From Pontibacter ramchanderi (GTDB lineage Bacteria; Bacteroidota; Bacteroidia; Cytophagales; Hymenobacteraceae): a DNA stretch of 64,000 bases. The position numbers and the translations under genes were made by a program. Each line of letters starts with the position of its first letter. Positions within the stretch are counted from its first letter, which is position 1. This document shows, piece after piece, positions 113 through 63,989 of the stretch. A model generated the notes under the pieces. The model did no database searches. It had not been told where the DNA came from and saw only the letters and a program-made list of their open reading frames with translations. The stretch is from the NCBI RefSeq assembly GCF_002846395.1, contig NZ_PJMU01000001.1:1426001-1490000 (forward strand), in the 5' to 3' direction.

Positions 113-1366
113 ATGGTCAAACTATTCAAAGGCATATTCGATAGTGCAGCACCAGCCGAAGTACTGGAGCGCACCCCATCTTACCAGGATTTTGTACTGA
201 TCGACTGGTACGACGAAGGCAAAGCAAAAGCACAGAATCACGGCGCTTCTGAGACAGGGCTAAAAACCTGCATTGGCAAAATTTACCATAACCATAAGGA
301 GATTCTGCGCCAGGACGAGATAGAGCAGGAAAAGGCGAAGCAGCCTTTTCGGGTGAAGCTTAGGGAATACATGATGAAGAACGAGGTATACCACAACCGC
401 CTTGAGAAGATCAAGCATGTAGAGGTACCTAAGATTGAGGAGAAAATTGAAGCTCTGCAGGAAGAGATCCGGGAAATGAAAAGGAACCCGCAGGATTTCA
501 TCGGCGACAAGGTGGGTAAGGCCGGTTTTGTGATCGGCACCATTATCCTCACTTTCCTGACAGTATACCTGTTTATCTTCTATAGTTCAGCTTCTTTCTC
601 CGCTTTCTTCAAAGAATTCACAGTAGGTGAACTGGGAGTTGCTAACTCCATCTTTGATGCACAAGCCCTCTCAAAGGCTTACAAAGACGGGTTTACAGAA
701 TTGGTGCTCATCCTGACTATTCCCTTTGTGTTCCTGGGCCTCGGCTACCTCATTCACAAATTTCAGGAAGTAAAAGGCTGGGGCAAATATCCTAAAATTG
801 TCATGCTAATAGCTGTTACTTTCATTTTTGACGCTATCCTTGCTTATGAGATTACAGAGAAGATCTATAATATAAAGGCAGAAAACAGCTTTGACGACAT
901 CCCGCCATACACCGTAGCCATGGCATTTCAGTCAGTCAACTTTTGGCTCATCATCTTTGCAGGATTTGTGGTGTATTTAGTCTGGGGTTTAGTATTTGAC
1001 TTTGTGATGGAGGCCTACGGCAAATTAGATCAGTTAAGCGTGATTGTAAAAGCAAAAAAGGAGGAAATCGCTAAGAAAGAAGAGCAACTGCATAAGCTTG
1101 ATGAAGAAACAGATAAACTGAACAATATTATTGGCAGCAACAATACTGAGATAGAAAAGCTCAAGACCATTCTTGACCATTCGGACATCATTAAACCAAA
1201 GGAGTTGGAGCACTCCCTCATGCGGTTCCTGGATGGTTGGCTGGAGTTTCTCAATTTCAACAGCCGCGATGAAACAGCACGCCAGAACGCACATAACCTG
1301 GTAGTAGAATTTATACAAATGAATGTTAAACCCATGGAAGCCCTCGCCCAAGACAATGAAAAATAA
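113..1366 (+). CDS. Coiled-coil membrane protein of unknown function
   Basis: I do not recognise a named family in this 417-residue protein. Four hydrophobic segments are visible at about residues 137-158, 195-214, 228-247 and 276-298. A charged, heptad-like helix lies before them (about 95-125) and another after them (about 310-352), so long coiled coils probably extend from the inner membrane on both sides of the membrane domain. The ATG lies two bases after the upstream stop. The end overlaps the start of the following lipoprotein gene by 11 bp, which points to translational coupling. The gene is AT-richer than most of the window and has only one copy of the AGGTATA motif. It could be a scaffold or sensor in an accessory system, but that is inference. 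Confidence 0.75.
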   Translation: MVKLFKGIFDSAAPAEVLERTPSYQDFVLIDWYDEGKAKAQNHGASETGLKTCIGKIYHNHKEILRQDEIEQEKAKQPFRVKLREYMMKNEVYHNRLEKIKHVEVPKIEEKIEALQEEIREMKRNPQDFIGDKVGKAGFVIGTIILTFLTVYLFIFYSSASFSAFFKEFTVGELGVANSIFDAQALSKAYKDGFTELVLILTIPFVFLGLGYLIHKFQEVKGWGKYPKIVMLIAVTFIFDAILAYEITEKIYNIKAENSFDDIPPYTVAMAFQSVNFWLIIFAGFVVYLVWGLVFDFVMEAYGKLDQLSVIVKAKKEEIAKKEEQLHKLDEETDKLNNIIGSNNTEIEKLKTILDHSDIIKPKELEHSLMRFLDGWLEFLNFNSRDETARQNAHNLVVEFIQMNVKPMEALAQDNEK

Positions 1367-2255
1367 GCTCCTATCCCTGTTTCTTGCCTTCGCCCTATTC
1401 AGCTGCGGCAGTTCTGAAGAAGCAAATATTGAGAAGGCATCTGTAGAGCCACAGACTGCAGAAGTTAAACCCCAGATGCTGAACATCAGCATTGTACTAG
1501 ACTTGTCAGACAGAGTAATTCAGCCCATGCAGCCCACGCAGGCTGAGCGTGATATCCAGATTGTAGGTAAGCTGACGGAGGTATTCAGAAATAACATGAA
1601 AGCAAAGGGCTCTTTCCAGTCGAAAGACAAAATAAGAGTGCTGTTTAAACCTGCTCCTAATGATCCGAACATCAATAATATCGCCAAGAAGCTGTCGGTG
1701 GATCTTTCGAACATGAACAGCAAACAGAAGAAAGAAGTATACGACAACATCACTACCAATTTCGAGGAAGGTCTGAGAGAAATCTATACCCAGACCATCA
1801 ACAGTAAAAACTGGGTAGGCTCTGATGTCTGGCGCTTCTTTAAAAATGATGTAAAAGATCTTTGCATAGAGTCTAATCCTGAATACCGCAATATCTTGGT
1901 TATAGTGACAGATGGCTATCTCTATCATGAGCAGTCAAAGGACCGTCATCAGAATAAAACCTCTTACATCACACCGAAGTTTCTGCAGGACGAAGGCTTT
2001 AGAAAAGGCGGTGATTGGCGAGAGAAAATGAAAAAGGAAAGCTATGGCTTACTGAGCACCAACCAAAAAATCGAAAACCTGGAAGTTATGGTGTTGGAAA
2101 TTAATGCATCTGATTCTCACAAGAATGAAGAGGATATTATCAAAGCATATCTTAACGAATGGTTTCGGGATATGAGCATTGAAGATCCGGTGCTGCATAC
2201 TACCGATCTACCCTCGAACACAGACAAGAGAATTGAGAACTTCTTTAGAAGCTAA
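1356..2255 (+). CDS. Lipoprotein with von Willebrand A-like features
   Basis: The start at 1356 was chosen because it gives a clean lipoprotein signal: MKNK, a hydrophobic stretch, and the lipobox LFSC with Cys17 as the lipidation site. An in-frame ATG at 1323 would add 11 unlikely residues. The mature protein (about 282 aa) has a hydrophobic strand followed by D49-L-S51 and, later, a strand ending in T185-D-G. This order resembles a vWA fold with a MIDAS site, although the third MIDAS residue of the first motif is Arg rather than Ser. It overlaps the upstream membrane-protein gene by 11 bp and is followed by a terminator, so it closes the operon. A metal-dependent binding role in the envelope is plausible but unproven. 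Confidence 0.7.
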   Translation: MKNKLLSLFLAFALFSCGSSEEANIEKASVEPQTAEVKPQMLNISIVLDLSDRVIQPMQPTQAERDIQIVGKLTEVFRNNMKAKGSFQSKDKIRVLFKPAPNDPNINNIAKKLSVDLSNMNSKQKKEVYDNITTNFEEGLREIYTQTINSKNWVGSDVWRFFKNDVKDLCIESNPEYRNILVIVTDGYLYHEQSKDRHQNKTSYITPKFLQDEGFRKGGDWREKMKKESYGLLSTNQKIENLEVMVLEINASDSHKNEEDIIKAYLNEWFRDMSIEDPVLHTTDLPSNTDKRIENFFRS

Positions 2256-2290
2256 AAAGAAGGGCCCCAGGATTGGGGCCTTTCTTTTTG
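2256..2290 (+). terminator. Rho-independent terminator after the vWA-like lipoprotein
   Basis: GGCCCC at 2263-2268 pairs with GGGGCC at 2275-2280 across a 6-base loop. The stem is extended by AAGAAG/CTTTCTT and followed by a T-rich run. It starts directly after the stop codon at 2255. Confidence 0.8.
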
Positions 2291-2384
2291 AAAGTGTTCA
2301 GTTTTAATCAGGATTACAATTCCTTTGGGTAGTTTAATCTAAACTGTGTCATTTCCTGATTTCAAATTACCAGTCATAGCTATT

Positions 2385-3890
2385 TTACAGATCAGTAGCC
2401 AACTCAAATACCTCCCGGTACGCCTGCTCCATTCTCTCGATTTCATCGTCGGTGAGCTTAGCAAAGTCTTTTCTCCGGCGCTTCGGGAAACTACCCTTGT
2501 TCTGGTGCAGAAACAGGATCATCAGATTCAGCTCCTTGTCGGGCATGTCCACAATTTGCTGCAGCTCCCTTTTTGCCTCGTTATAGCGCTGAATAAAGGT
2601 AAGTTCCTGCGGCATATCATCAGTAATTGTCGACTGTATCGTGTGGGCAAGAAAAATAGTTTGGTCCGTCAAATCCGGGTAGCGGAAATACCCCTCCACT
2701 TCCTTCTTGTTGGTCACCTCCAGTTCTCCATTGGCTGTTTTGGTGTACTGCACCAGCCGCATCAAAGGTTTGGAGTAATTTTCAAGTGTTTTATCGTAGT
2801 CGCGCATGTGGCTAAGCATGTGGGCCGACACCGGAATGATCAGCCCATCGGGTACCACTCCGTCCCGTACGAGCATGTCATGGATCAGAAAACGGTGCAG
2901 CCTGCCGTTGCCGTCTTCGAATGGATGGATAAAGACGAACCCAAATGAAATGACAGTTGCTCTTACCAGAGCAGAAGCTCCCTCCGATTTGGAAGCGGTT
3001 TCTTTCAGACCCTCCATCAGTGAAAGCACAAACTCTGGTGGCGGACAAATGAAATGAATCATTTCCACGTAGTTTGGGAGTGTCTGCCCGATATAGTTCT
3101 GAAAGTTACGGTAACCGGAAGCCGCAAACCGGGGATCGACAATGGCATTTTGCAGTTGCGTCAGGTTTTCTTCGCTCAACAAATGTTCGCTTGTCCCCCT
3201 GCCGGCGTGGCTGAGCAGCGCTATAAAACGCTCCATTCTTTCGGGAGAGGGCTTCTCTTTTTCAATTTCATAGGAAGAGCGGGTTTCCTTACTATACAAG
3301 TAATGTATCGCTCTGCTGAACGTGTCCAGGTCAAAGCTTTCTTTCAACTGGTCCACTTGCTGCCGCAGGTCTTGTTGTAGTACATCTGCCAGTGCACTTG
3401 TCTTCCGTACGATGGGGCAATAAGCAGCCGTACCCAGCAAATTGTTGTTAATGCGCCACTTCTGGACTTTTACCGCCTTGCCTGTAAAGTATTTACCCTC
3501 TTCCAGCAAGTCAACATAATTTCCTCCTACCGCTACAGCAAGTGCTACTTGCCTGCCGGTTAGGAATTCGTACAGAAAACCGATCTTTCGGGCATACTTA
3601 CCTGTTGGGGAGCTTTCTACATAGGCTACAATTTCCACTTCCGAAACGAGCGCAAAAACAGCCTGCAGGAAAGCGAGATGGAGGTCATCATACTTTAAAG
3701 AGAACTCCAGGTGCGCCATTACTGTATTTGAAGCCGGTGCATATTTCGAACCATAAACCTGATTGACCTCCCCGCTAGGGGTCAGCTCCAATTTAGCGTT
3801 CTGTCCGATGTATGAACGGTGCGTCAGTGCAAAACGCATCAATTTAAAATGCTCCTGCAGCCACAGACTACCGACTGTTTGCAATTTCAT
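2385..3890 (-). CDS. Fic family protein (putative AMP transferase)
   Basis: The Fic signature HPFEDGNGR lies at residues 322-330 and is complete, including the catalytic His and the phosphate-binding GNGR. Fic enzymes usually transfer AMP from ATP to a Ser, Thr or Tyr of a target protein. SSYEIE at about 205-210, upstream of the Fic core, resembles the (S/T)xxxE inhibitory helix of self-inhibited Fic proteins, here followed by Lys rather than Gly or Asn. The first 180 residues form a separate N-terminal domain, and about 160 residues follow the motif. At 501 residues it is larger than a minimal Fic protein. It is alone on this strand. An array of palindromes at 3918-4038 lies just upstream and could be its operator. 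The substrate cannot be inferred. Confidence 0.9.
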   Translation of the reverse strand: MKLQTVGSLWLQEHFKLMRFALTHRSYIGQNAKLELTPSGEVNQVYGSKYAPASNTVMAHLEFSLKYDDLHLAFLQAVFALVSEVEIVAYVESSPTGKYARKIGFLYEFLTGRQVALAVAVGGNYVDLLEEGKYFTGKAVKVQKWRINNNLLGTAAYCPIVRKTSALADVLQQDLRQQVDQLKESFDLDTFSRAIHYLYSKETRSSYEIEKEKPSPERMERFIALLSHAGRGTSEHLLSEENLTQLQNAIVDPRFAASGYRNFQNYIGQTLPNYVEMIHFICPPPEFVLSLMEGLKETASKSEGASALVRATVISFGFVFIHPFEDGNGRLHRFLIHDMLVRDGVVPDGLIIPVSAHMLSHMRDYDKTLENYSKPLMRLVQYTKTANGELEVTNKKEVEGYFRYPDLTDQTIFLAHTIQSTITDDMPQELTFIQRYNEAKRELQQIVDMPDKELNLMILFLHQNKGSFPKRRRKDFAKLTDDEIERMEQAYREVFELATDL

Positions 3891-3910
3891 CTGTCTCTTT
3901 ATGTAAATTG

Positions 3911-4038
3911 ATTAAAATTACAGTAAAATAGTTAAAATGAATTTATTTTACAGTAAAACATATAAAAATTAAACAGGACATATTACACATACTAGAATTA
4001 CTGTAAAATGAATATAACAAGCAATAGCTACTGTAAAA
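3911..4038 (-). promoter_or_regulatory. Four regularly spaced TTACwGTAAAA palindromes upstream of fic
   Basis: Near-identical 11-mers TTACAGTAAAA (3918, 3948), TTACTGTAAAA (3998) and CTACTGTAAAA (4028) share an odd-length dyad TTAC-W-GTAA. Their centres are 3922, 3952, 4002 and 4032, so the spacings are 30, 50 and 30 bp. Multiples of 10 would place all four on about the same face of the helix. They lie 30-145 bp upstream of the fic start in very AT-rich DNA. A cooperative repressor operator is the simplest reading; the regulator is not identified. Confidence 0.55.
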
Positions 4039-5055: not shown

Positions 5056-6328
5056 GCAGCAGAACAGGTATAACCTGCACCTGCTGCTCTTTGTGCTCAC
5101 TCTGATCACGACGACCATTGCCGGGGCCGAGTGGCGCTTCGGCAAGTTGTTCTTCTGGGGGCCGGAGGGTTTTTCGTGGACGGGTTCTTTTACCTGGGCC
5201 GAACTGGCAGCCGGGCTCTACTTCTCGCTGCCTTTTCTGGGCGTTCTAACGGTGCATGAGTTCGGGCACTACTTCACGGCCAAGCACTACCGCACCAATG
5301 TCACGCTGCCCTATTACATCCCGCTGTGGTTCGGCATCACGTCCACCATCGGCACGATGGGCGCTTTCATACGGATCCGGAGCCGCATCTTCTCAAGGCA
5401 ACAGTTCTTCGATATAGGTATAGCCGGTCCCCTGGCTGGCTTTGTGGTGGCGATCCCGCTGCTCTGGTATGGCTTCACGCACCTGCCCGAGCCTGATTTT
5501 ATCTACAGCATTCACCCGGAGTACCAGCAGTTCGGACAGGACTACGCCCGGTATGTCTACCAGGGAGAGGGTAATTTTTCGCTGGGCAAAAACCTACTTT
5601 TTCTATTTTTTGAACGATATGTCGCAGATCCGGCGCTGGTGCCCAATGCCTATGAAGTAATTCATTACCCGCTGCTTTTTGCCGGCTACCTGGCGCTGTT
5701 TTTCACAGCCCTCAACCTGCTGCCCATCGGTCAGCTGGACGGTGGACACGTGCTCTACGGCCTGATCGGGTACAGGCGCTTCAACCAGCTCTCGCCCATC
5801 TTCTTCACGCTCTTCATCGTGTATGCCGGTATGGGGATGATCTCGCCGCATCGCCAACCGCTCTGGGACGATAGCCTGTTGGTGGTGCTGGCGCCTTTTG
5901 TGTTCTTCGCCTTCCGGGGCATTCTGCACGACAATCGCCGCGGCCTGCTGGCGGCGCTGGGGATGCTGCTGGCGCAGTACAGCCTGGCCGAGACCTTCCC
6001 GGACCTGGCAGGCTACATCTGGGCATGGCCGCTATACCTGCTATACCTGTTCTTTGTGTTGGAACCCGCCACCCCAAAACTGCGCTTCACGGCTTACCTG
6101 GTGCTGATCGTGGTAGTGGTGCAGGTCCTGATCGCCTGGCTATACCCTGCCGCCGACGGCTACAGCGGCTGGCTGGTTTTCGGCCTCTTACTTTCGCGTC
6201 TGATGGGCATCTTCCATCCTTCCTGTCCAAACGAAGCGCCAATCACGACCGGACGTAAGGTGTTGGGAGTACTAGCCTTTGTGATCTTTCTGCTGTGCTT
6301 TACGCCTACGCCGTTTGTAATTGGGTAG
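5048..6328 (+). CDS. Site-2-type (M50) membrane zinc protease
   Basis: The zinc-binding motif HEFGH is at residues 70-74, inside a transmembrane segment. The second active-site motif NLLPIGQLDGG at about 223-233 supplies the third metal ligand (Asp). Around these are eight or more hydrophobic helices. Such proteases cut substrates within the membrane plane. There is no PDZ domain, so this is not the RseP-type enzyme; it resembles the compact M50 proteins of Bacteroidota and chloroplasts. The start at 5048 was chosen because MPKQQNR directly precedes the first helix, and it overlaps the HAD stop by 8 bp. The last 130 residues are almost entirely hydrophobic. The target is unknown. Confidence 0.9.
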   Translation: MPKQQNRYNLHLLLFVLTLITTTIAGAEWRFGKLFFWGPEGFSWTGSFTWAELAAGLYFSLPFLGVLTVHEFGHYFTAKHYRTNVTLPYYIPLWFGITSTIGTMGAFIRIRSRIFSRQQFFDIGIAGPLAGFVVAIPLLWYGFTHLPEPDFIYSIHPEYQQFGQDYARYVYQGEGNFSLGKNLLFLFFERYVADPALVPNAYEVIHYPLLFAGYLALFFTALNLLPIGQLDGGHVLYGLIGYRRFNQLSPIFFTLFIVYAGMGMISPHRQPLWDDSLLVVLAPFVFFAFRGILHDNRRGLLAALGMLLAQYSLAETFPDLAGYIWAWPLYLLYLFFVLEPATPKLRFTAYLVLIVVVVQVLIAWLYPAADGYSGWLVFGLLLSRLMGIFHPSCPNEAPITTGRKVLGVLAFVIFLLCFTPTPFVIG

Positions 6329-8803: not shown

Positions 8804-9580
8804 TTAGTCTATACCTTGCACAGGCTCCTCACCGGCCACCCAAAGGTCCACCAGCTCGCCTGTTCGTATCTTGGCTTTCACGTCTGCGATCGGACGCTGA
8901 CGAATGACAGTGCCATCCGGCTTACCGCTGCCCGCCACATAAATGATGTTACCCAGCTGCAGCTTCTGACCCACAAGCAGTACCGAGGCTTCGTCGAGCG
9001 GCATACCTACCACATCCGGCACTTCAAACTCGGTATTGCCCAGGCCATCGCCTACATGCAGGTCTACCACGGCACCTTTCGGCACCAGATCGCCTGGCTG
9101 TACTTCTTTTCCGTCCACAAACTGCTTCAGCACGGCGCCATGCTGCAAGTCGGGCACGTTGGTGATCTTACCGCGACGCAGGCTGTAGCTTTTCAGGATC
9201 AGTTCTGCATTTTTCACCGAACCATCAATCAGCTTAGGCATCTTGATCATCGGCGGGTTTTTCATGTTGATGCTGATGTAGATCTTGCGGTTCTCCTTTA
9301 CTTTGGAGCCCGGCGACGGGTCTTGCGTCAGAATCTCGAAAGGCTTGTATTCCGGGTGATAGCTGGAGTCGTTTACGAAATAGCGTAGGTTCTGTTCTTC
9401 CAGAAAAGGCTCCGCATCCGGCAGCTGCATGCCCGTGATTTTAGGTACCGAAATGGTCTCGCCATGGTTTGTAGCCGACGGCAGGTATAGGTAGAAGAAT
9501 CCGAAGATCAATCCCGCCACGATCACTCCCATCAAGGCCAGGTGCACCAGCACTCCCACAAATGAATTCGTCTTTAGCAT
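8804..9580 (-). CDS. PASTA domain membrane protein
   Basis: A short cytoplasmic N terminus is followed by one transmembrane helix (about residues 9-32) and then three PASTA-like repeats, recognisable by the recurring VP(K/D)xxGMxLxxA and RQxPxxG patterns (for example VPKITGMQLPDA and VPDVVGMPLDEA). PASTA domains usually bind peptidoglycan or muropeptides and occur on kinases or PBPs. Here there is no kinase or transpeptidase domain, so the 258-residue protein is an isolated periplasmic sensor or anchor. The neighbour encodes a D-Ala-D-Ala ligase, in keeping with a cell-wall context. Confidence 0.9.
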   Translation of the reverse strand: MLKTNSFVGVLVHLALMGVIVAGLIFGFFYLYLPSATNHGETISVPKITGMQLPDAEPFLEEQNLRYFVNDSSYHPEYKPFEILTQDPSPGSKVKENRKIYISINMKNPPMIKMPKLIDGSVKNAELILKSYSLRRGKITNVPDLQHGAVLKQFVDGKEVQPGDLVPKGAVVDLHVGDGLGNTEFEVPDVVGMPLDEASVLLVGQKLQLGNIIYVAGSGKPDGTVIRQRPIADVKAKIRTGELVDLWVAGEEPVQGID

Positions 9581-9592
9581 TTATATTTTATT

Positions 9593-9800
9593 GTTGATTG
9601 TTCGCCCCATAGGGGCTTTTGTTGATTGTTTATTGTTGGATTGCTGATTGTTAATTGTTGATTGTTAAAAGATGGAGTAGGCTTCGTAGGGACAGGTCGC
9701 GACCTGTCCGAATCGTGCACCGAAATTCCCCTCCTCGAAGGGGCAGGGATGGGTGAATCATGCACCCAACAATCAACAATTAACAACCAACAATTTAACT
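9593..9800. repeat. Intergenic repeat bounded by inverted TTGTTAATTGTTGATTGTT copies
   Basis: The 19-mer TTGTTAATTGTTGATTGTT (9648-9666) recurs inverted at 9768-9786. Further TTGTTGATT-type units lie outside the left arm. Between the arms are the perfect 18-bp palindrome GACAGGTCGCGACCTGTC (9691-9708) and a CCCCTCC/GGGGCAGGG hairpin (about 9727-9752). No ORF is present. The arrangement resembles a small non-autonomous element or a composite of dispersed repeats. The TTGTTGATT unit also occurs at 52.98 kb and 57.6 kb. Confidence 0.6.
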
Positions 9801-16746: not shown

Positions 16747-16749
16747 CCC

Positions 16750-17733
16750 TTGGATTTTCTGGAAGTAACCGGCCTGCAGATGCAGGAAGATGGCCATACC
16801 GTGCTGCACGGCATCAGCTTTCGGCAGGGTGAGTATGAGAAACTTGCCATTGCAGGCGAAACGGGCTCCGGTAAAAGCACGCTGCTGCAGGCCATTGCCG
16901 GGCTGGTGCAGCCCAGCGCCGGGCAGATCACCTTTGAGGGCAAGCGCGTCATCGGTCCGCACGACAAGCTGGTGCCGGGCCACGAAGGCATCGCCTACCT
17001 TTCGCAACACTACGACCTGCCCCAGTTTTTGCGCGTGGAGCAAGTATTGCGCTATGCCAACATACTGCAGGGCGATGAGGCCGAAACCCTGTACGAGGTA
17101 TGCCGCATCAGTCATCTGAAGCAGCGCAAAACCCACCAGCTTTCAGGGGGTGAGCGACAGCGCATCGCCCTGGCCCGCCTGCTCAGCACCTGGCCCAGCC
17201 TGCTGCTGCTCGACGAGCCTTACTCCAACCTCGACAAAGGTCACAAAGAGCTGCTAAAAGAGGTTATCCACGACATCACCGAGCGGCTCGCCATCACCTG
17301 CATACTCATTTCCCACGACCCGCACGACACTCTCTCCTGGGCGGACCGCATCCTGATCATCAAAGGGGGACGCATGGTACAGCAGGGCACGCCTGAGCAG
17401 GTATACCGCCACCCGGTTGATGCCTATACCGCCGGTTTGTTCGGCAATTACAACCTTATACCTGCGCACGTAGCCTTGCCATTTGCAGAAAAGCTAGGTA
17501 TAGCCGTTACTGCGCGCGACCTGCTGGTGCGCCCGGAGCATTTCAGGTTTGTAGCTAAAGAAGCCGGATCCTTAAACGGTACCGTCCAGAAAGTAACTTT
17601 CTTCGGTGGCTATTACGACGTGCAGGTACAGGTAACGGGCTTTAGCGTTACAGTCCGGACACAGGCTATACCTGCCACTGTAGGCGATCAGGTATACCTG
17701 GCGGTGAAGCAGGAAGACATCCGCTTTGTCTGA
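16750..17733 (+). CDS. ABC transporter ATP-binding protein (PotA/FbpC-like)
   Basis: The start is a TTG three bases after the previous stop. Walker A GETGSGKST lies at 36-44, the signature LSGGE at 131-135, Walker B LLLLDEP at 151-157 and the switch His at 189. Residues of about 230-327 form a regulatory domain like the TOBE domain of iron and polyamine importer ATPases. No permease or binding-protein gene lies nearby, so its transport partners must be elsewhere, or it acts with a non-transport partner. The 3' third carries an unusual density of the AGGTATA motif (six copies in 300 bp within the gene). Confidence 0.88.
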   Translation: MDFLEVTGLQMQEDGHTVLHGISFRQGEYEKLAIAGETGSGKSTLLQAIAGLVQPSAGQITFEGKRVIGPHDKLVPGHEGIAYLSQHYDLPQFLRVEQVLRYANILQGDEAETLYEVCRISHLKQRKTHQLSGGERQRIALARLLSTWPSLLLLDEPYSNLDKGHKELLKEVIHDITERLAITCILISHDPHDTLSWADRILIIKGGRMVQQGTPEQVYRHPVDAYTAGLFGNYNLIPAHVALPFAEKLGIAVTARDLLVRPEHFRFVAKEAGSLNGTVQKVTFFGGYYDVQVQVTGFSVTVRTQAIPATVGDQVYLAVKQEDIRFV

Positions 17734-29041: not shown

Positions 29042-29292
29042 AAAACACAAAAAATATACATTATAAATAACTGATTATCAATTACTTATAAATTATTTTC
29101 AGGAATACACTTCCCCTCTCCCATCCACCGGCTTAATTAGCACAGAAATGCAAAGGGGGGATATATTGTACGTGAAAATTACAATTGAGATAGGCGTAGG
29201 TTTTTCTTTAGACCAGGTTTAAAAAAGGGACATGCGAGAACGACCAGCCATCAGGTGGCCAGGTATAGCAAAGCAACAAGAACAGGTATAGC

Positions 29293-30176: not shown

Positions 30177-31262
30177 TCAATTCTCCGACCCCTCTCTCCT
30201 GTCTTCAGGCATCTTATTGCCTTCGTCTCTGCTCTCACTCTCCAGCACGTCCTTCACATACAGTTCGTTAATGACTACGGTAAGCACAGCCAGCAGCGGG
30301 GCCGCCATTAGCAAGCCCAGTCCGCCTTGCATGATGCCGAGCAGCACCTGGAAAAAGAGCAGCAAGGCAGGAGGCAAGTCCACGGTTTTCTGAAAGATAA
30401 TTGGGGTGATGATGTAAGATTCTACCATTTGGATGGCCCCATACACGACAATGACAAGCAGCGCCATGTCGGGACTTACGGTTAGCCCTACCAGCACGGC
30501 AGGTATACCTGCCAGCCAGGGCCCGATGTTTGGTATAAAAGCCAGAAAGAAGGAAATCAGACCTAGCGCAAAAGCCAGCGGCAGGCCCATGATCGTGTAA
30601 GCAATGGCCGTGCTAACACCTATGATCGCCATGGCAGACAACATACCCAGCAGCCACATTTTCAAGGTATGGTAGCAGATATGGAGTACCTCCAGCATGC
30701 GGGTGCGCCGATGCTCAGGAAAGAGTTTTACAAAACCGTGGGTATAGAGCGTAGGGTTGGCTGCAAAGAACAGCGCTGTGATCACTACTATAAAAAAATC
30801 GGCCAGAATGCTGAGTGTAGAGGAAAAGGCGCCCGTCAGGCGTTTCAGTATCTCCTTTTGCTCCGGCATCATCCGGTTGTAGTCATCGGGTAGGCTCTCT
30901 ACCAGGCGCCGGCCCCAATTGTACTGGCCCAGCCACTCCTGCAAGCTACTGAAGGCCTGTGGTATGGTCTCGCGCATCTGGTCTGCCTGTTCATAAATAG
31001 TGGGCGCAACAACCCAAAAGGCACCGATCAGAACGCCGAACACCAGCATCGTCACCAGCAGCAAACTCAGGCCGCGCTTCAGGCCAAGGTGCTTTACCAC
31101 CCAGTCTGTGAGTCCGCTAAACAGTACGGCCAGCAGAATGCCGGCAAACACCAGCAGGAAGAAATAGGCCGCCTTGGCGAGCAGATAAAATCCGGCGACT
31201 ATGAGCATCACAATGAAAGCGGCCAGCGCCACACGTTTGGCAAATAAATGTTTCGAAGGCAT
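30177..31262 (-). CDS. AI-2E family transporter (PerM-like)
   Basis: 361 residues with the hydrophobic profile of the AI-2 exporter family: two or three N-terminal helices, a soluble stretch (about 90-160) and several C-terminal helices. It contains the family landmarks FIPNIGPWLAGIPAVLVGL and IESY-like MVESYIITPIIFQK. Members export or exchange small solutes or sodium ions, and only a few have been studied. The C terminus is hydrophilic and charged. It is divergent from sucC, with only 23 bp to the first bases of the sucC upstream region. Confidence 0.9.
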   Translation of the reverse strand: MPSKHLFAKRVALAAFIVMLIVAGFYLLAKAAYFFLLVFAGILLAVLFSGLTDWVVKHLGLKRGLSLLLVTMLVFGVLIGAFWVVAPTIYEQADQMRETIPQAFSSLQEWLGQYNWGRRLVESLPDDYNRMMPEQKEILKRLTGAFSSTLSILADFFIVVITALFFAANPTLYTHGFVKLFPEHRRTRMLEVLHICYHTLKMWLLGMLSAMAIIGVSTAIAYTIMGLPLAFALGLISFFLAFIPNIGPWLAGIPAVLVGLTVSPDMALLVIVVYGAIQMVESYIITPIIFQKTVDLPPALLLFFQVLLGIMQGGLGLLMAAPLLAVLTVVINELYVKDVLESESRDEGNKMPEDRREGSEN

Positions 31263-51712: not shown

Positions 51713-52978
51713 ATGAAACTTACTTGTTTTAATACCCCAATGAGGCTGATTTTGTTGTTAACACTGTCCGCTACGCAGCTTTTAACTTCCTGTGGCTCTT
51801 CCACATCTACCGATAACACCTTACAACCCGGTCCGTGGCGCGTGGCGCTGCAGGCACAGGGTCAGGAAATCCCGTTCATCATGGAAGCCGAGGAGCAGAA
51901 CGGCAAAACGGTGCTATACCTGATCAACGCCGACGAACGCATTCTGGTAGACGAATTTCACCAGGAGGGCGACTCACTTCGTATCCGGCTGCACATCTTC
52001 GACGCTGACCTGATTGCGAAGGTAGACGACGACAAGATGGCGGGCCGCTTTACCAGAAATGACCTGGCCTATCGCTATTCGGTTCCGTTTGTAGCGGAGC
52101 ACGGCAATGCCAACCGTTTTAAGGCTAACCCCGACCCTGCCAGCTATACCTACACCGGCAAGTGGGAGGTGGTTTTCACCGAGCCGGATGGCAAGCAGTA
52201 CAACGCGATCGGTATATTTGAGCAGAAAGACAACCACGTAACCGGCACTTTCCTGACCGAGACAGGCGACTACCGCTACCTCGAAGGACAAGTGGAAGGC
52301 AATGGGCTGAAGGTGTCGACGTTTGACGGCAACCACGCCTACCTGTTCACGGCCACGCCAACAGATAACGACAACCTGAGCGGCCATTTTTACTCCGGCC
52401 CTTCGCACCACGAAACCTGGGTAGCCAAGCGCAACGAAAATGCTGAACTGGCCAATGCCAACGAACTGACTTTCCTGAAGCCTGGCCACGAGTCGCTGGA
52501 ATTCACCTTCCCTGACCTGGAGGGCAAGCAAGTATCGTTGTCGGATGAGAAGTACAAAGGCAAAGTGGTGCTGGTGCAGCTGCTCGGCTCCTGGTGCCCG
52601 AACTGTATGGACGAGACCCAGTTTCTGGCACCATACTATGCCAAGAATAAAGACCGCGGTCTGGAGATAATCGGCCTGGGCTTTGAGCGCGCCAAGGGCT
52701 ACGAGCAAGCGGTACCGCGCCTGAATAAAATGAAGGACCGCTTCAACATTGAATACGACTTGCTCTACGCAGGTACATCCGATAAAGAGGCAGCTGCACA
52801 GGCGCTTCCGGCGCTCAACCACGTCCTCTCCTTCCCAACCACTATCTACATCGACCGCCAGGGCAAGGTGCGCAAGATCCACACAGGCTTCTCGGGCCCC
52901 GGCACAGGCAAATACTACGAAGAGTGGGTAACGGATTTTAACAAGACGATGGACGAGTTACTGGCCGAGGAAATTTAA
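51713..52978 (+). CDS. Lipoprotein with TlpA-like thioredoxin domain
   Basis: 421 residues. A lipoprotein signal ends in LLTSC. Residues of about 40-245 contain beta-rich repeats of the kind in which similar halves recur (GPWRVALQAQGQEIPFIMEA, then GKWEVVFTEPDGKQYNAIG). The C-terminal 150 residues form a TlpA/AhpC-like domain with the redox motif WCPNC at 294-298. It should be a periplasm-facing thiol-disulfide or peroxiredoxin-type protein attached to a membrane. A TAATTTTG box at 51701-51708 ends four bases before this ATG, so the downstream in-frame ATG at 51740 (MRLILLLTL) may be the true start. Confidence 0.85.
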   Translation: MKLTCFNTPMRLILLLTLSATQLLTSCGSSTSTDNTLQPGPWRVALQAQGQEIPFIMEAEEQNGKTVLYLINADERILVDEFHQEGDSLRIRLHIFDADLIAKVDDDKMAGRFTRNDLAYRYSVPFVAEHGNANRFKANPDPASYTYTGKWEVVFTEPDGKQYNAIGIFEQKDNHVTGTFLTETGDYRYLEGQVEGNGLKVSTFDGNHAYLFTATPTDNDNLSGHFYSGPSHHETWVAKRNENAELANANELTFLKPGHESLEFTFPDLEGKQVSLSDEKYKGKVVLVQLLGSWCPNCMDETQFLAPYYAKNKDRGLEIIGLGFERAKGYEQAVPRLNKMKDRFNIEYDLLYAGTSDKEAAAQALPALNHVLSFPTTIYIDRQGKVRKIHTGFSGPGTGKYYEEWVTDFNKTMDELLAEEI

Positions 52979-53008
52979 TTGTTGATTGTTAATTGTTGAT
53001 TGTTTGAT
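52976..53008. repeat. TTGTTGATTGTTAATTGTTG repeat
   Basis: The sequence directly after the stop repeats the AATTGTTGATTGTT unit seen at 9.6 and 57.6 kb. No ORF or terminator stem is attached to it. Confidence 0.6.
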
Positions 53009-56095: not shown

Positions 56096-56582
56096 GCTAT
56101 ACCTGCTGCTGGGCGGCAACCTCGGTGACCGCCCGCTATACCTGTCCCATGCCCGCGAACGCATTGCCGCTCAAATCGGCTCCATTGCACAGAGCTCTGC
56201 CCTGTACGAAACTGCCGCCTGGGGAAAGACGGACCAACCCGCTTTTCTGAACCAGGTGCTGGAGGTACAAACTGACTTGAGCCCCGAACAGGTGCTGCAA
56301 GGTATACACGGGATCGAGCAGGAACTGGGCCGCATCCGGCACGAGCACTGGGGGGCACGCGTGATTGATATTGACATCCTGTTCTACGACCAACTGGTGT
56401 TGCAATCGCAGCGTCTGACCATTCCGCACCCACAACTACACCTCCGCCGGTTCACCCTGTTGCCGTTGAGCGAGATCGCCCCGCATTTGCTGCACCCAGC
56501 CCTGAACACAACTGTTACACAGCTTCTGCAAGACTGTCCGGATGAACTGCCTGTCCAGGTATACGATCCGGCAGCTGACTAA
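56088..56582 (+). CDS. folK: 2-amino-4-hydroxy-6-hydroxymethyldihydropteridine pyrophosphokinase
   Basis: 164 residues. LLLGGNLGDR at the N terminus, SALYETAAWGKTDQPAFLNQ, LGRIRHEHWGARVIDIDILFYD and the PHPQLHLRRFTLLPL segment are the folate HPPK signature in order. The enzyme transfers pyrophosphate from ATP to the pterin in folate synthesis. It overlaps the upstream hydrolase by eight bases. A terminator follows 70 bp after the stop. Confidence 0.96.
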   Translation: MPKLYLLLGGNLGDRPLYLSHARERIAAQIGSIAQSSALYETAAWGKTDQPAFLNQVLEVQTDLSPEQVLQGIHGIEQELGRIRHEHWGARVIDIDILFYDQLVLQSQRLTIPHPQLHLRRFTLLPLSEIAPHLLHPALNTTVTQLLQDCPDELPVQVYDPAAD

Positions 56583-57594: not shown

Positions 57595-57599
57595 GCTGA

Positions 57600-57917
57600 T
57601 ACTTATTGTTGATTGCTGATTGTTGATTGCTGATTGTTGATTGCTAATTGTTGATGGTTAAATTGTTAAATGGTTGAATTGTTAGATGGTTAAGAATTTA
57701 GGTGTGCTTACATATATGCCAAACCTATACCTGAGCTTAGGCTATACCTCTATTATACCTGCTCTTATGTTTGAGCTTACAGGTATAAGTACATTTCCTA
57801 TCGGCTCTACCTCTCCGCATAGCAAGGTATAAAAGGGGGCAATAAAGCCAGTAGCCGTTCGGACAAAGAAAGACCCAACAACCATTTAACCATCAACATT
57901 TTAACAATTGATCCAAT
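57600..57917. repeat. Intergenic block of TTGTTGATT and AGGTATA repeats
   Basis: Tandem-like TTGTTGATTGCTGATTG units run from about 57605 to 57690, changing into AAATTGTTAAATGGTTGAATT. Five copies of the AGGTATA motif follow at 57726, 57743, 57754, 57781 and 57825. AACAACCATTTAACCATCAAC near 57878-57898 is an inverted match to the left part. No gene is visible. Confidence 0.65.
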
Positions 57918-58346: not shown

Positions 58347-61126
58347 TAGCGTACTATTTCAACCCAGCCTTTGTATTTACTGCGGCTGCGTTCAGGGTCA
58401 ATGGATATAAACTCAACCTCGGCCTCGTAGTAATAAACTCCATCTGTGAGGCGCTTACCATCGTTATCGGTGCCTGGCCAGTTGATATACGGATCTGAGT
58501 TGCTTTCGTATACCTTCACGCCCCAACGGTTAAATACCTTGAAGGTAGTAGAGCGAATAAAGGCCGCCCTCGGATCCGGCCTGAACACATCGTTCTTTCC
58601 GTCATCGTTTGGCGTGATGATATTCGGGAGCTGGAAGAAGAAGCAGTTGTCCTTGCATTCTTCGTTGCTCGGCTCGCTTTCCTCTCCTGCCAGGCTCGTA
58701 GCCGTTACATAGTAGCAGGCGGCAAAAGACTCCAGCCCGGTATGGGTATAGGTGGTTTCTTTTGTCGTTGCGATGGCGCGGTATTCTGTTTCGCCCGGCC
58801 CTCTGAAGTATACGGTATAGAAATCGATCTCATCCGTGCATCCATTGCCGATCTGTGGTTCCCAGTTCAGCACGTTCTGGTATGGTGGCCTGGTCGGGTT
58901 AGCGAAGAAGGCCTCGCAATCCAATACATCCAGCGTGAGCTTTGGCGGACAGATCAGGAGCGGGGTTTCCACACAAACCTGCTGGCTGAAGTTTTGGAGA
59001 GGCTCCGGCAAACCATCGATCTGGTAAGTACCCTGCGTGCGCACAACATAGCAGTAAGTTTGACCACGCTCCAGCGGGGCGGCGGTAGTGCCTCTGTCTA
59101 CAAAGGTACCTCCCGTGGCCGATGCCGACACACTGCCTACCTGCACCAATTCGTTTCCTACAACCCGGAAAATCTGATGCTCGAGCACCTCGTTTTTCCA
59201 AGGCACAATGTAGTTCCAGTTGAGCGACACCGCAAGGTCGTTGCCTGTGCTTTGTACTTCGGCCGCCAATCGCACACTGGAAGCGGAAGTGGAATCGCGC
59301 AGCATGTTCGGTGTGGCGCCGCCCGCAGTACGGGTGCTGTAAAACTCCAGCTTATACCTGTAGCCATTCGCCTCAGTGTTCAGTCCGCTGTTCACAAAAA
59401 CCGTGTCGCTCAGTCTGCGTGAAGAGAAGACCTGTTGGTAGACCCCTCCCGGCTCCTGCCCTGTCTTGCGATACAGCCTATATTCGAAAGGCGGGTTCAG
59501 GCGCTCTATACCTGGGCCGGGCTGTGTCCAGCGCACCGTAATCTGTCCGTTGGTAGTGGCCGTGCGGTCAATTGTCACGTTGGTAATATACGGTATGTCC
59601 CGCTCCAGCACCACACAGGCTTCGAGCGAGGCGATACTCTGCCCACCGGCAGGTCTTGGAAACTCAGCATAAATCACATAGCAATACTCGGCCCCGGCAA
59701 CAAGCCCTTGTCCGTTGTTATTGTCTAAAAACTCTGTCTTGTCCTTGCCCACTTCGCCTATCAGTGTATAACCCGCACTGGCCGGCACGCCGGTCTCACA
59801 AGGCCCTGGTCGCCAGCCCGATGGTCCCTCCCGCCTGTAAATGCGGATAGTAGAAGCGTTCTGGCAAATGTATTTGTCCCAGGTCAGGAGCACAGACCGA
59901 TCCTCGCCGGTAGCAAGCAGATTCTGAGGCGCCGGCCCAATCACCGTAATGCGGTAAGGCTGCAAGTCGGCCAGCTGCCTGCCCGGAGGAGGCGGATTAT
60001 CTTCTGCCCTGAAAATAAGCTGGTAAGGATTGGCACGCACATCACTGCAGGAAGTATTCCAAACCAATTGTCCGGCGGCCCGGCCCGGCTCGTTTACAGT
60101 CGATCTAAAAGTAGCAGGAGGCAGTATGCCGCCGGTACCAGGTACGGTAAGGGTGATTCGTTGGCCAATACCATTAGCGTCTCTGTCCGGGTCAGTGGCG
60201 GTGATGGTGGTACGCAGTGTCTCGCCGGCCACAATACAGGTATCGCGCGGTACGAGCACCGGCGGCCGGTTTCGGGCATCCACTACTAGGATCTGCATGT
60301 CGCGCACCACAGTGCTGATCAGCACAGGGGCGGCACCCGTTACCCGCCACTCCTCTACTACAAAGGCCACGTTGTATTCGCCCAGGCGGCAGGGGGCATC
60401 CCAGGTGATCTGGCCGGTAATCGGGTCGAGGTTAAAGGTCGAAGGTCCGGTGTTAGTAGAGTTGCGGCAATTATCAACGGTGTGCGGATCGCGGTAACCG
60501 GGCACATTGGTGATCAGGCCTGTCTGCGGATTACGGTACTGTGGCTGAATCAGGCGGAAGGCCAGGCTGTCGCCATCCGCATCGATCGCGCCCGGGTTGT
60601 GCACCCAGCGCTCGCCGACAGTTGCTTCATCAATTGGAGCTACTTGTAGTATAGGCGTGCTATTGAGGCCACGCAGTGGGTTAATTGAAACAGTGGTCGA
60701 AATAGAAAAGGTGAGCTGATCAGTTGGAGCAGCCATGTTCAGGATGCCGCCGTTCCGGTTTTCGCCTACCCACGTTACAGTATAGGTGCCATTAGCCGGA
60801 AAGGTATACTCCCACTTAAATTCTTCGCGGTCTACGTCCGGTTTAATGTTCGTAACAGACAGGCGTTCTACTGTAACGGTCTCCCCTGTTCCCATGGAGA
60901 TGAACACGCGCGGGTCGTCGGCTGTGGAGGATGTTTTGGTGTACATCACCATCGTAAAAAAGAACTTTCGGGGGTTGGGGTTGGGTCCGGTGTCCCGGAC
61001 GGCGGTGATGTCCCCGGCACGGATGTGCGTCGCCTGCGCCTCATATGCATATCCCAACAGCAACATCAATACCAACAGCACTATGCGGCCAGGCAAGCAA
61101 CAGCTCAAGCGTAAACTATTTGGCAT
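58346..61126 (-). CDS. Large extracellular protein with T9SS type B sorting domain
   Basis: About 926 residues. A signal peptide ends near EAQA-THIRAG. The middle is a chain of beta-sandwich modules, several of fibronectin type III character (VLLTWDKYIC, ITVRWTQPGPGIERL, VSLNWNYIVPW). The C-terminal 90 residues are the gliding-motility-associated type B sorting domain: FFQLPNIITPNDDGKNDVF, FKVFNRWGVKVYES, WPGTDNDGKRLTDGVYYY. I start at 61126 because a TACCTTTG box at 61154-61161 would put the transcript start downstream of the ATG at 61156. It is probably surface-attached, adhesin-like. Confidence 0.9.
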   Translation of the reverse strand: MPNSLRLSCCLPGRIVLLVLMLLLGYAYEAQATHIRAGDITAVRDTGPNPNPRKFFFTMVMYTKTSSTADDPRVFISMGTGETVTVERLSVTNIKPDVDREEFKWEYTFPANGTYTVTWVGENRNGGILNMAAPTDQLTFSISTTVSINPLRGLNSTPILQVAPIDEATVGERWVHNPGAIDADGDSLAFRLIQPQYRNPQTGLITNVPGYRDPHTVDNCRNSTNTGPSTFNLDPITGQITWDAPCRLGEYNVAFVVEEWRVTGAAPVLISTVVRDMQILVVDARNRPPVLVPRDTCIVAGETLRTTITATDPDRDANGIGQRITLTVPGTGGILPPATFRSTVNEPGRAAGQLVWNTSCSDVRANPYQLIFRAEDNPPPPGRQLADLQPYRITVIGPAPQNLLATGEDRSVLLTWDKYICQNASTIRIYRREGPSGWRPGPCETGVPASAGYTLIGEVGKDKTEFLDNNNGQGLVAGAEYCYVIYAEFPRPAGGQSIASLEACVVLERDIPYITNVTIDRTATTNGQITVRWTQPGPGIERLNPPFEYRLYRKTGQEPGGVYQQVFSSRRLSDTVFVNSGLNTEANGYRYKLEFYSTRTAGGATPNMLRDSTSASSVRLAAEVQSTGNDLAVSLNWNYIVPWKNEVLEHQIFRVVGNELVQVGSVSASATGGTFVDRGTTAAPLERGQTYCYVVRTQGTYQIDGLPEPLQNFSQQVCVETPLLICPPKLTLDVLDCEAFFANPTRPPYQNVLNWEPQIGNGCTDEIDFYTVYFRGPGETEYRAIATTKETTYTHTGLESFAACYYVTATSLAGEESEPSNEECKDNCFFFQLPNIITPNDDGKNDVFRPDPRAAFIRSTTFKVFNRWGVKVYESNSDPYINWPGTDNDGKRLTDGVYYYEAEVEFISIDPERSRSKYKGWVEIVR

Positions 61127-61153
61127 AAGCGTAGAGTTAGATTTGGCGCTGAA

Positions 61154-61161
61154 CAAAGGTA
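61154..61161 (-). promoter_or_regulatory. -7 promoter box of the T9SS type B gene
   Basis: On the minus strand TACCTTTG matches TAnnTTTG. Transcription would start near 61147, about 20 bases before the ATG at 61126. No clear TTTG at -33. Confidence 0.45.
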
Positions 61162-61280
61162 AAATGAAAACTGAATTTTTACCTTTTTATTATCAACAAA
61201 AGCGAGAAAAGTAGGTTTATAATATATGGTTTTCAGTCCTACGCATTGCAATTTAGATTGATTCAAAATATGCTATTTAA

Positions 61281-61311
61281 TTGTTTTATACGGGCTCCAC
61301 TTGTACCTTTG
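61281..61311 (+). promoter_or_regulatory. Promoter of the sdh operon
   Basis: TTG at 61281-61283, 20 bases, then TACCTTTG at 61304-61311, an exact TAnnTTTG box. The predicted start near 61318 leaves a leader of about 37 bases before sdhC. Confidence 0.55.
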
Positions 61312-61354
61312 GGCATTAAAAAGCATTCATTACTTAACCTTCTAACAAATACAG

Positions 61355-62035
61355 ATGAATTGGTTTACTAAAACGTTTTCCAGTACAATCGGACGTAAGA
61401 TCATCATGTCGGTAACGGGCCTTTTCCTGTGCTCCTTCCTGGTGGTGCACCTTGTAGGTAACCTTACACTGTTTTACAGAGATGGCGGCGAGGCATTTAA
61501 CATCTACTCCCATTTTATGGCTAATAACCCTGTTATCCGTACGATGGAAATAGTGCTGGTACTCGGATTCCTGTTCCACATTTACGATGCCATTGTATTG
61601 ACGCGCCGCAACAAGGCTGCCCGCCCTGTTGGATACGCAGAGAATCACCCACAGGAAAACTCCACCTGGTCTTCCCGTAACATGGGTCTGCTGGGTACGA
61701 TCATCCTGGTGTTCCTGCTGGTGCACTTATGGAACTTCTTTGTACCGGCTCGCTTCGGAGAGCTGGAGGGTGTTCCAAACGCCGAGTACACGAACCTGTA
61801 CGCTGAAGTAGTAAAAGCATTCAAAAACCCGATCTACGTAGGCCTTTATGTGATCTCGATGATCGCCCTGGCCTATCACCTGATCCACGGTTTCCAGAGC
61901 GCGTTCCAGTCGCTGGGCCTGACGCACAAAAAGTACACGCCGTTTATCAAAACATTTGGCGTGGCGTTCTCTGTGCTGATCAGCCTGGGCTTTGCGCTTA
62001 TCCCGCTCTACTTCTTTTTCTTCGTTAATTTGTAA
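61355..62035 (+). CDS. sdhC: Succinate dehydrogenase cytochrome b subunit
   Basis: 226 residues with five membrane helices, the fused single-anchor type found in Bacteroidota and Wolinella-like enzymes. IGRKIIMSVTGLFLCSFLVVH at the start, HIYDAIVLTRRNKAARP in the middle and AYHLIHGFQSAFQSLGL near the end contain the His residues expected to bind two hemes b. It anchors the flavoprotein and iron-sulfur subunits and passes electrons to menaquinone. sdhA follows after 19 bp. Confidence 0.95.
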   Translation: MNWFTKTFSSTIGRKIIMSVTGLFLCSFLVVHLVGNLTLFYRDGGEAFNIYSHFMANNPVIRTMEIVLVLGFLFHIYDAIVLTRRNKAARPVGYAENHPQENSTWSSRNMGLLGTIILVFLLVHLWNFFVPARFGELEGVPNAEYTNLYAEVVKAFKNPIYVGLYVISMIALAYHLIHGFQSAFQSLGLTHKKYTPFIKTFGVAFSVLISLGFALIPLYFFFFVNL

Positions 62036-62054
62036 TTAAGCTAATATACTTGCT

Positions 62055-63989
62055 ATGATATTAGATTCTAAAATCCCGGAAGGCGCCTTAGCTGAAAAGT
62101 GGGATAAGCATAAATTCAATGTGAAGCTGGTAAACCCAGCCAACAAGCGTAAATACGATATTATTGTAGTAGGTACCGGTCTTGCCGGTGCATCTGCCGC
62201 CGCCACACTTGGCGAACTGGGCTATAACGTAAAAGCGTTCTGCTTCCAGGACTCTCCACGCCGTGCGCACTCGATTGCGGCGCAGGGTGGTATCAACGCT
62301 GCCAAAAACTACCAGAACGACGGTGACTCCATCTTCCGCCTGTTCTACGATACTATCAAAGGGGGCGACTACCGTGCCCGCGAGGCCAACGTTTATCGCC
62401 TGGCCCAGGTATCGGTTAACATCATTGACCAGTGCGTGGCGCAGGGTGTTCCTTTTGCCCGTGAGTACGGCGGTCTGCTGGCCAACCGTTCATTCGGTGG
62501 TGCACAGGTATCGCGTACGTTCTACGCTCGTGGCCAAACCGGACAGCAGCTGTTATTAGGTGCCTACTCTGCCCTGAACCGTCAGATCGCTTATGGTAAA
62601 GTGAAGATGTACCCACGCACCGAAATGCTGGACCTGGTGATGGTGGATGGCAAAGCTCGCGGTATAGTGGTGCGTAACCTGATCACGGGTAAAATAGAGT
62701 CGCACAGCGCGCATGCGGTGGTGTTGGCAACAGGTGGTTACGGCAACGTGTTCTTCCTCTCTACCAACGCAATGGGCTCGAACGCCACTGCAGCCTGGAG
62801 AGCGCACAAAAAAGGGGCTTTGTTCGCCAACCCTTGCTTCACCCAGATTCACCCAACCTGTATACCTGTATCCGGCGACTACCAGTCCAAACTGACGCTG
62901 ATGTCGGAGTCACTGCGTAACGACGGTCGTGTATGGGTTCCTAAGACAGTAGAGCTTGCCCAGCGCCTGCGCAAGGGTGAGATCAAAATAAACGATATCA
63001 AAGAAGAAGATCGCGATTACTACCTGGAACGCAAATACCCTGCTTTCGGTAACCTCGTGCCGCGCGACGTGGCTTCACGCAACGCCAAACTGGTATGCGA
63101 CGAAGGCCGTGGCGTAGGTGCCTCTGGTCTGGCCGTGTTCCTCGACTTTGCTGACGCCATCAAGCGCGAAGGCCAGCCGGCGATTGCTGCCAAGTATGGT
63201 AACCTCTTCGAGATGTATGCCAAGATCACGGACGAGAACCCATACGAAAGTCCGATGCGCATTTACCCTGCGGTGCACTACACCATGGGTGGCCTTTGGG
63301 TAGACTACAACCTGATGACCAACATCCCGGGTCTGTACGCAACCGGCGAGTGTAACTTCTCTGACCACGGTGCAAACCGCCTTGGTGCTTCGGCCCTGAT
63401 GCAGGGTCTGGCCGACGGTTACTTCGTGATTCCTTACACAATCGGTGATTACCTGGCACAGACGCCTTACGCGAAAGTAAGCACAGAGCACCCTGCCTTT
63501 AAGGAAGCCGAGCAAAACGTGAAAGCGATTACAGACCGTCTGTTGTCTATTAAAGGTAACCGCACGGTAGATGACTTCCACAAGGCCCTTGGCCAGATCA
63601 TGTGGGATTACTGCGGTATGGCCCGAAACGCCGAAGGTCTTCAGTTCGCAAAACAGGAGATCCGTAAGCTGCGCGACGAGTTCTGGCAGAACGTGAAAGT
63701 TACTGGTGTGAACGAAGAGCTGAATCAGACACTGGAGAAAGCACACCGCGTAGCCGACTTCCTGGAACTGGGCGAACTGATGGTAGACGACGCCCTGAAC
63801 AGAAATGAATCGTGCGGTGGTCACTTCCGTGAAGAGTACCAGACACCAGAGAACGAGGCCCTGCGTGACGACGAGAACTATGCCTATGTAGCCGCCTGGG
63901 AGTATACTGGCCCTGGCAACCAGGCCATCCTGCACAAGGAAGATCTGAAGTTCGAGAACGTGAAGCTAACGCAGCGTAGCTATAAATAA
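62055..63989 (+). CDS. sdhA: Succinate dehydrogenase flavoprotein subunit
   Basis: 644 residues. The FAD-binding dinucleotide motif [12 protein letters not shown] lies at 38-49, His72 in [11 protein letters not shown] is the covalent FAD site, and HPTC and HYTMGG (substrate region) are intact. It oxidises succinate to fumarate in the TCA cycle. The gene is complete; its stop lies 11 bases before the window end, and sdhB is expected immediately after it. Only one AGGTATA copy (62861) is present in 1.9 kb. Confidence 0.97.

Follow-up and report, generated by a model that had tools for sequence, protein, structure and literature searches.

The window, a 64,000-nucleotide stretch of Pontibacter ramchanderi DNA (contig NZ_PJMU01000001.1, positions 1,426,001 to 1,490,000), carries many dispersed copies of one heptamer, AGGTATA (TATACCT when read on the other strand), in both orientations. 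An earlier note, made from the letters of the window, had counted by hand about 62 AGGTATA and about 54 TATACCT between positions 384 and 62867; our recount of the plus strand gave 63 and 55, and the span proved exact, the first copy starting at 384 and the last ending at 62867. The sum of 118 copies compares with 23.7 expected under a third-order Markov model, and AGGTATA tops all 7-mers of the window by excess score. The extended forms AGGTATAGC and CAGGTATAG/CTATACCTG occurred 38 times (1.7 expected) and 36 times (2.2 expected), respectively. These and the following excess ratios are conservative, as the model itself contains the motif. Of the proteins encoded in the window, SdhA matched 10 Pontibacter loci at 91-96% identity among 80 retained loci, with other named genera at no more than 89%, which places the host in Pontibacter. 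The listed copies are collected in Table 1.

Enrichment and distribution of the word in P. ramchanderi

Across the whole host genome (G000, 4.43 Mb; Bacteroidota, Cytophagales), CAGGTATAG was found in 1,127 + 1,115 = 2,242 copies with near-equal orientation, while the reversed sequence of the word, our control, was found in 5 + 5 = 10, which rules out a local effect of the window. In a 446.5-kb sample of the genome, AGGTATA was present 737 times compared to 154.9 expected (4.8-fold) and CAGGTATAG 211 times compared to 14.3 (14.8-fold); this sample includes 2,500 masked N (row L102), and the row was dropped for the 444-kb analyses below. The enrichment was therefore neither below 2-fold nor limited to the window, the two outcomes that the earlier note had named as speaking against its observation. 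The sequence logo of the sample reads [C/A/T]AGGTATA[G/C][C] and is almost flat on either side. One-mismatch forms of CAGGTATAG at positions 2-7 totalled 109 (about 99 expected), CAGGTATGG was raised (43 compared to 10.8), and variants of CAGGTATAG with A or T as the first base were also raised. The word is non-palindromic, short and dispersed in thousands of copies. The DNA uptake sequences (DUS) and uptake signal sequences (USS) of other bacteria are likewise non-palindromic words, of 9-12 bp, in hundreds to thousands of dispersed copies.

The copies cannot be explained by codon use, as the earlier note had argued. Within-gene synonymous codon shuffling over 444 kb left 67.6 ± 5.5 coding copies compared to the 549 seen (247 sense and 302 antisense, with all six phases occupied), which rules out an origin in codon use or in a protein family; the enrichment is at the DNA level and not at the protein level. 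Because open reading frames (ORFs) were called simply by taking the longest first, the coding and intergenic classes are approximate; on this basis, the density per 10 kb in P. ramchanderi was 14.5 within ORFs, 27.4 between ORFs and 50.7 between convergent ORFs (41 copies in 8.1 kb). In G030, a one-contig genome of the genus that carries the related spelling AACTATA (see below), 20 stretches gave 52.6 copies per 10 kb between genes and 19.9 within. Spacing had been suggested to be checked for being more even than random, and was found slightly clustered instead (coefficient of variation 1.24; 9.6% of gaps shorter than 30 bp compared to 5.1% expected).

Stretches chosen for being motif-poor held accessory-looking genes (20 proteins scanned, all of them from motif-poor stretches): an MmeI-type enzyme, a SusCD-like pair and an efflux pump at a contig start of G028, glycosyltransferases at the start of C3 in P. 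ramchanderi (40% GC), and HipA, a beta-lactamase-fold protein and an ABC transporter in one stretch of G030. L099, a low-GC stretch of P. ramchanderi, was just moderately poor, with 11 copies per 10 kb.

Table 1 Listed copies of the word in the window (positions count from the first letter of the window).
Feature	Position	Strand	Basis or remark
Dispersed array, 63 AGGTATA + 55 TATACCT	384..62867	both orientations	position list and enrichment
CAGGTATAG, one of 20 forward extended copies	29260..29268	+	position list
Further forward CAGGTATAG copies	include 7962, 9482, 16046, 17735, 20764, 24142, 25217, 53410, 53952	+	
CTATACCTG, one of 16 reverse extended copies	56097..56105	-	position list
Further reverse CTATACCTG copies	include 6032, 6041, 12972, 37148, 49194, 59506	-	
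Densest cluster, seven copies in less than 350 bp	17399..17742		copies at 17399, 17457, 17496, 17667, 17690, 17693, 17736
Palindrome AGGTATACCT, two opposite copies overlapping	30501..30510		second instance at 17690-17699
Two same-orientation copies, 9 bp start to start	6033..6048	-	

The window also holds short tandem runs of TTGTTGATTG-type heptamers at 9575-9666, 52963-53004 and 57597-57666 (nine copies of a 28-nt unit).

Spellings across the genus and conservation at orthologous sites

Many congeners had AAGTATA or AACTATA as top word in samples of 14-40 kb. Whole-genome counts over 50 Pontibacter genomes separated 12 genomes with AGGTATA, 19 with AAGTATA, 5 with AACTATA, 3 with a mixture of the AAG and AAC spellings and 11 in which none of the three was strong (G002, G007, G023, G024, G025, G027, G033, G036, G060, G141 and G151). 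P. virosus (locus L003) is an example of an AGG species, and P. mangrovi and P. arcticus are examples of AAG species. The AGG form CAGGTATAG reached 1,073-2,518 copies in the 12 AGG genomes and 56-411 in the remaining 38. Its AAG counterpart AAGTATAAA reached 1,270-4,337 copies in the 19 AAG genomes, 1,968-3,463 in the 3 mixed ones, 1,062 in G074 (labelled AAC) and 84-572 in the remaining 27, and the AAC counterpart AACTATAG reached 6,288-8,208 copies in the 5 AAC genomes, 907-2,617 in the mixed ones and 70-476 in the other 42. The mixed genome G032 carries its two word forms in 2,242 and 2,002 copies. Among the 16 ANNTATA words in pooled 20-kb loci around comEC, each group's own spelling stood out (AGG 5.2-fold, AAG 5.2-fold, AAC 4.3-fold), the next-highest word reaching 2.0-fold, 1.6-fold and 1.9-fold, respectively.

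Some genomes classed as lacking a strong form displayed a weaker excess. In G007, each of the three spellings was weakly in excess (CAGGTATAG 218, control 29; AAGTATAAA 572, control 92; AACTATAG 476, control 182). Further or fading dialects are possible in G060 (ATATATGG, 24 compared to 5.6), G036 (GGGTATA, 25 compared to 9.1) and G002 (CAGGTACAG, 9 compared to 1.2 in 40 kb, with AGGTACAG-like words), all three weak in excess.

A midpoint-rooted tree of PhoH and ComEC (50 genomes, 1,042 columns) placed all 12 AGG genomes in one monophyletic group (UFBoot 100), whose sister is the AAG genome G006. The five AAC genomes formed one clade with the mixed genomes G026 and G032 (UFBoot 100), and the third mixed genome, G095, was placed apart, adjoining G007. 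The AAG genomes are scattered over the rest of the tree, and the motif-less genomes occur in several places. The spellings are one letter apart and follow the species tree, AGG and AAC each needing one base change; AAG is probably the ancestral spelling.

Copies of the word were also more often conserved than other heptamers at the same loci. Ordered-pair comparisons (132) of the 12 AGG comEC loci, at a mean identity of 83.7%, found 2,698 of 3,918 aligned AGGTATA sites intact, 538 one base off and 682 further changed, with 2,011 sites unaligned; these site-pair counts are not independent, because the comparisons reuse the same 12 loci. Four control words were intact at 49/177, 68/379, 50/232 and 0/27 sites of these loci. 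Between P. ramchanderi and each of the 11 other AGG species, 52-86% of copies near comEC were intact, compared to 24-38% for any aligned heptamer. In a chosen subset of the other genomes, seven AAG pairs gave 238/348 intact (background 42%), three AAC pairs 168/262 (background 35%), and three motif-less pairs gave 0/6 (AAGTATA), 2/6 (AGGTATA) and 4/9 (AACTATA) against a background of 34%. Of the 29 sites in the last 16 kb of the window, 19 align with P. virosus; 11 of these were intact and the other eight were in eight different states.

The altered sites suggest how one spelling may have given way to another. When AAG sites of G006 were aligned and counted over the 12 AGG genomes (151 in total), 5 were intact and 44 were one base off, and 27 of these 44 had G in place of A at position 2, which makes AGG. 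This alignment suggests that a part of the AAG sites was rewritten in place to AGG.

A candidate uptake sequence and its rivals

We propose that AGGTATA is a new type of uptake (self-recognition) sequence that works without pili, a reading that we hold to be probable, with some reserve. The earlier note had offered a DNA uptake sequence, a nucleoid-protein or methyltransferase site, and a repair product as candidate roles; the first fits best, given the dialects, the intergenic excess, the conservation and the competence genes ComEC and DprA, each occurring in 50/50 genomes, and the last is disfavoured. The proposal draws on things observed: the word itself, the dialects and how they match the tree, how far copies are conserved and where they lie, and the finding of both comEC and dprA. 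The word, as [CAT]AGGTATAGC, would serve as a self-recognition signal for DNA import. A sequence-specific surface or periplasmic receptor, other than a type IV pilin, would favour word-bearing DNA, and the imported strands would pass ComEC, receive protection from DprA and recombine. Such biased import (molecular drive) could regenerate and spread copies wherever codons or spacers tolerate them. If the receptor preference shifted by one base, the genome would slowly be rewritten to a new dialect, presumably from AAG to AGG and from AAG to AAC, and copies would decay once specificity was lost.

In number, dialects, conservation and intergenic excess the word appears to work like an uptake sequence, although we do not file it as a member of DUS or USS, because two traits tied to the proteobacterial cases, the pilus ATPase (from a search of the ATPase family) and terminator pairs, did not turn up and the signs of polarity were mixed. 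Characterised DUS and USS systems combine a type IV pilus uptake machine with a minor-pilin receptor. Both proteobacterial families with uptake sequences use type IV pili; this includes the USS system of Pasteurellaceae, whose core is unrelated in sequence to the Pontibacter word. In Neisseria, paired inverted copies of the uptake sequence are frequent and act as terminators. Uptake sequences have been described for two proteobacterial families (PMC1939737). For Neisseriaceae, Frye 2013 (PMC3630211) describes eight DUS dialects, some of them one base apart, and one genome with 2,257 + 2,292 copies of two dialects. The resemblance to Pontibacter goes further: in both, a word of about 10 bp is dispersed in thousands of copies, its dialects differ by one or a few bases and agree with the phylogeny, one genome carries two of them about equally often, and some relatives have none (PMC3630211). 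Compared with DUS, the candidate word of Pontibacter is unrelated in sequence and phylum and forms no inverted-pair terminators; nor would a ComP-like pilin receptor be expected, as the search of the ATPase family gave no convincing type IV pilus or type II secretion system (T2SS) ATPase. Pasteurellaceae USS likewise have a 9-bp core, hundreds to thousands of motifs, differences between lineages and one orientation that is commoner in the reading frame (PMC2346458, PMC1626085).

Closer in phylogeny is Riemerella, which belongs to the same phylum. Transformation of R. anatipestifer is reported to need ComEC, DprA, ComF and RecA, together with four proteins not counted among the known machinery (PMC8459023), and R. 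columbina to prefer its own DNA (PMC7965970). ComEC and DprA, both required in Riemerella (PMC7965970, PMC8459023), are present in Pontibacter as well. In contrast to Pontibacter, the k-mers tabulated in PMC7965970 all combine A and T with no more than one further base, and the authors assign no function to them. DUF5689, the sole family tested of the four unfamiliar Riemerella proteins, does not track the motif in Pontibacter.

Several results weigh against the uptake reading. The 11 genomes that lack a strong motif keep both comEC and dprA as well. Stops were found in both genes of G009 and G021; those in G009 may reflect assembly quality, while the called ORFs near comEC of G021 are of ordinary length and competence may therefore be decaying there. 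Matches to the T2SSE/PilT ATPase family (PF00437) were just P-loop matches of about 60 residues, with the best per genome at 20-26 bits and above the cut-off in 3/50 genomes. The 50 genomes thus gave no convincing type IV pilus ATPase in a search that covered the ATPase family only and not the pilin and secretin families, and a receptor would therefore have to be unrelated to ComP. DUF5689 (PF18942) occurs in 22/50 genomes in at least three forms, with no clean link to the motif among the 50 and no occurrence in P. ramchanderi. Its proteins of 413-450 aa are found in 12 genomes, all motif-bearing (5 AGG, 5 AAC, 1 AAG, 1 mixed), and those of 1,099-1,299 aa in 5 AAG and 5 motif-less genomes. The gene follows a SusD-type gene in G011, G030 and G108, whereas in G139 it comes after one for a 728-aa protein that matches no Pfam family; because the neighbours differ, the 12/0 split does not reflect one orthologous gene, and DUF5689 did not lead to a receptor. 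Inverted pairs showed no special frequency among the 115 pairs of copies at most 60 bp apart in 444 kb (35 ++, 30 --, 29 +- and 21 -+; 13 of the 29 +- pairs are the overlap palindrome AGGTATACCT), so a role as terminator pairs was rejected. Finally, the orientation of copies in P. ramchanderi tracks GC skew (r = 0.61, p = 0.005; 20 segments), which slightly lowers the odds of uptake and slightly raises those of a Chi-like site.

A Chi-like site would attenuate AddAB (or RecBCD) and mark chromosomal DNA for repair, with dialects following changes in the Chi-reading subunit. We consider this unlikely, though it deserves attention. Chi sites are short, over-represented words that differ between lineages and species, and the 7-bp core lies within their length range. 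All 50 genomes (50/50) encode a PDDEXK_1 protein resembling AddB, 967-1,018 aa long, and it is this protein by which AddAB/RecBCD was judged present; it is, however, kept in genomes without the word. Strand counts per segment of P. ramchanderi were uneven (chi2 p = 0.008): C1 leans forward at 100-600 kb (134:79) and reverse at 1.2-1.32 Mb (26:47), following GC skew, and orientation was not tied to gene strand (r = -0.12). Against a Chi-like role, the G-rich strand carries just 384 of the 737 copies and the other strand 353, and G030 displayed no link between orientation and GC skew (r = 0.01; 528:548 over 20 stretches), its orientation following gene strand (r = 0.67; 411 sense, 235 antisense). 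Replication polarity is absent in G030 and weak in P. ramchanderi; the earlier argument that equal orientation speaks against a Chi- or KOPS-like polarity accordingly holds in G030 and only partly in P. ramchanderi. Polarity is not universal among Chi words, and uptake words require no link between orientation and GC skew. Copies were also 1.9-2.6 times denser between genes, and it would be unusual for a Chi word to be fully respelled by one base inside a single genus, which sets the Pontibacter word further apart from it.

The same data bear on a nucleoid, segregation or replication signal (KOPS-, parS-, Noc/SlmA- or MatP-like), which is highly improbable. The word is genome-wide and conserved, and the weak orientation link in P. 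ramchanderi would suit such a signal. Yet it is non-palindromic and missing in several lineages, orientation is independent of GC skew in G030, and the 20 stretches spaced over that genome revealed no zone limited to the origin or the terminus, 19 of them carrying 18-44 copies per 10 kb and one carrying 5.5. An alternative explanation is a site for a methyltransferase or another sequence-specific DNA protein with a housekeeping advantage, as proposed for HIP1 of cyanobacteria, a short and highly iterated word tied to orphan methyltransferases (PMC4390886). This explanation appears unlikely, since HIP1 is palindromic (PMC4390886) whereas the Pontibacter word is not and is respelled by single bases within the genus. 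That the word is a by-product of mutation or repair, through a Vsr-like process or mutation dependent on context, is close to excluded. Repair bias can enrich a short word and Vsr is common in the genus (43/50), but the 538 one-mismatch states cover all seven positions with transitions and transversions (the commonest being A to G at the first base, 150/538), so that no single mutation type makes the altered copies and there is no single mutational neighbour. Nor does Vsr track the motif: it is present in 33/39 genomes with the motif and in 10/11 without a strong one, and with its absence from 6/39 motif genomes we rejected the word as a Vsr product.

With three dialects a single base apart, three genomes of mixed spelling and several that lack the word, this set of 50 genomes from one genus is a natural experiment: the receptor should be traceable through genes whose presence follows the word and through residues that vary as the spelling does. 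This bears on the question whether uptake words serve species recognition or are by-products of receptor bias. If the uptake reading is true, self-recognition becomes testable in Bacteroidota, and adding the word to donor DNA would provide a practical genetics handle in a phylum whose transformation is poorly understood.

Iterated words beyond Pontibacter

The earlier note knew of no such motif in this group, and nothing that we met contradicted it: among the matches listed from the open-access literature, none described a motif of this kind for Pontibacter or for other members of the family, which is weak evidence of absence. In 130 genomes from other genera of the family, AAGTATAAA reached at most 260 copies (control 137) and, where common, at most 2.6-fold over control. 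In 22 genomes from other families of the order, CAGGTATAG was present in 9-162 copies, the two highest counts being a mild excess (G040, a 9-Mb genome, 162 with control 61; G038, 76 with control 13).

An unrelated iterated word, GCTAGGCCA, was present in 1,185-1,966 copies each, in both orientations, in four of the 130 other-genus genomes (G184, G185, G193 and G194), which we take to belong to one sister genus, Hymenobacter. The other 126 had at most 202 copies, some with a near-zero control (e.g. G089, 197 compared to 1). In Hymenobacter fodinae (L018), CTAGGCC was found 27 times in 22 kb compared to 4.3 expected. It is close to an even call whether the Pontibacter/Hymenobacter family independently evolved sequence-tagged import, with a pilus-independent, sequence-specific receptor, at least two single-base respellings of word and receptor in one genus and the unrelated GCTAGGCCA in some sister-genus genomes. 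If so, DNA uptake sequences would to our knowledge have arisen a third time, and for the first time in Bacteroidota.

Two further words were noted in passing. GGGTAGG occurred 31 times in 22 kb of Hymenobacter citatus (L029) compared to 7.7 expected, strongly one-sided (7:24), and may be a signal of polarity and not a dispersed word. In Larkinella, AAAACCG was over-represented in both L034 (35 compared to 13.3) and L039 (59 compared to 20.6).

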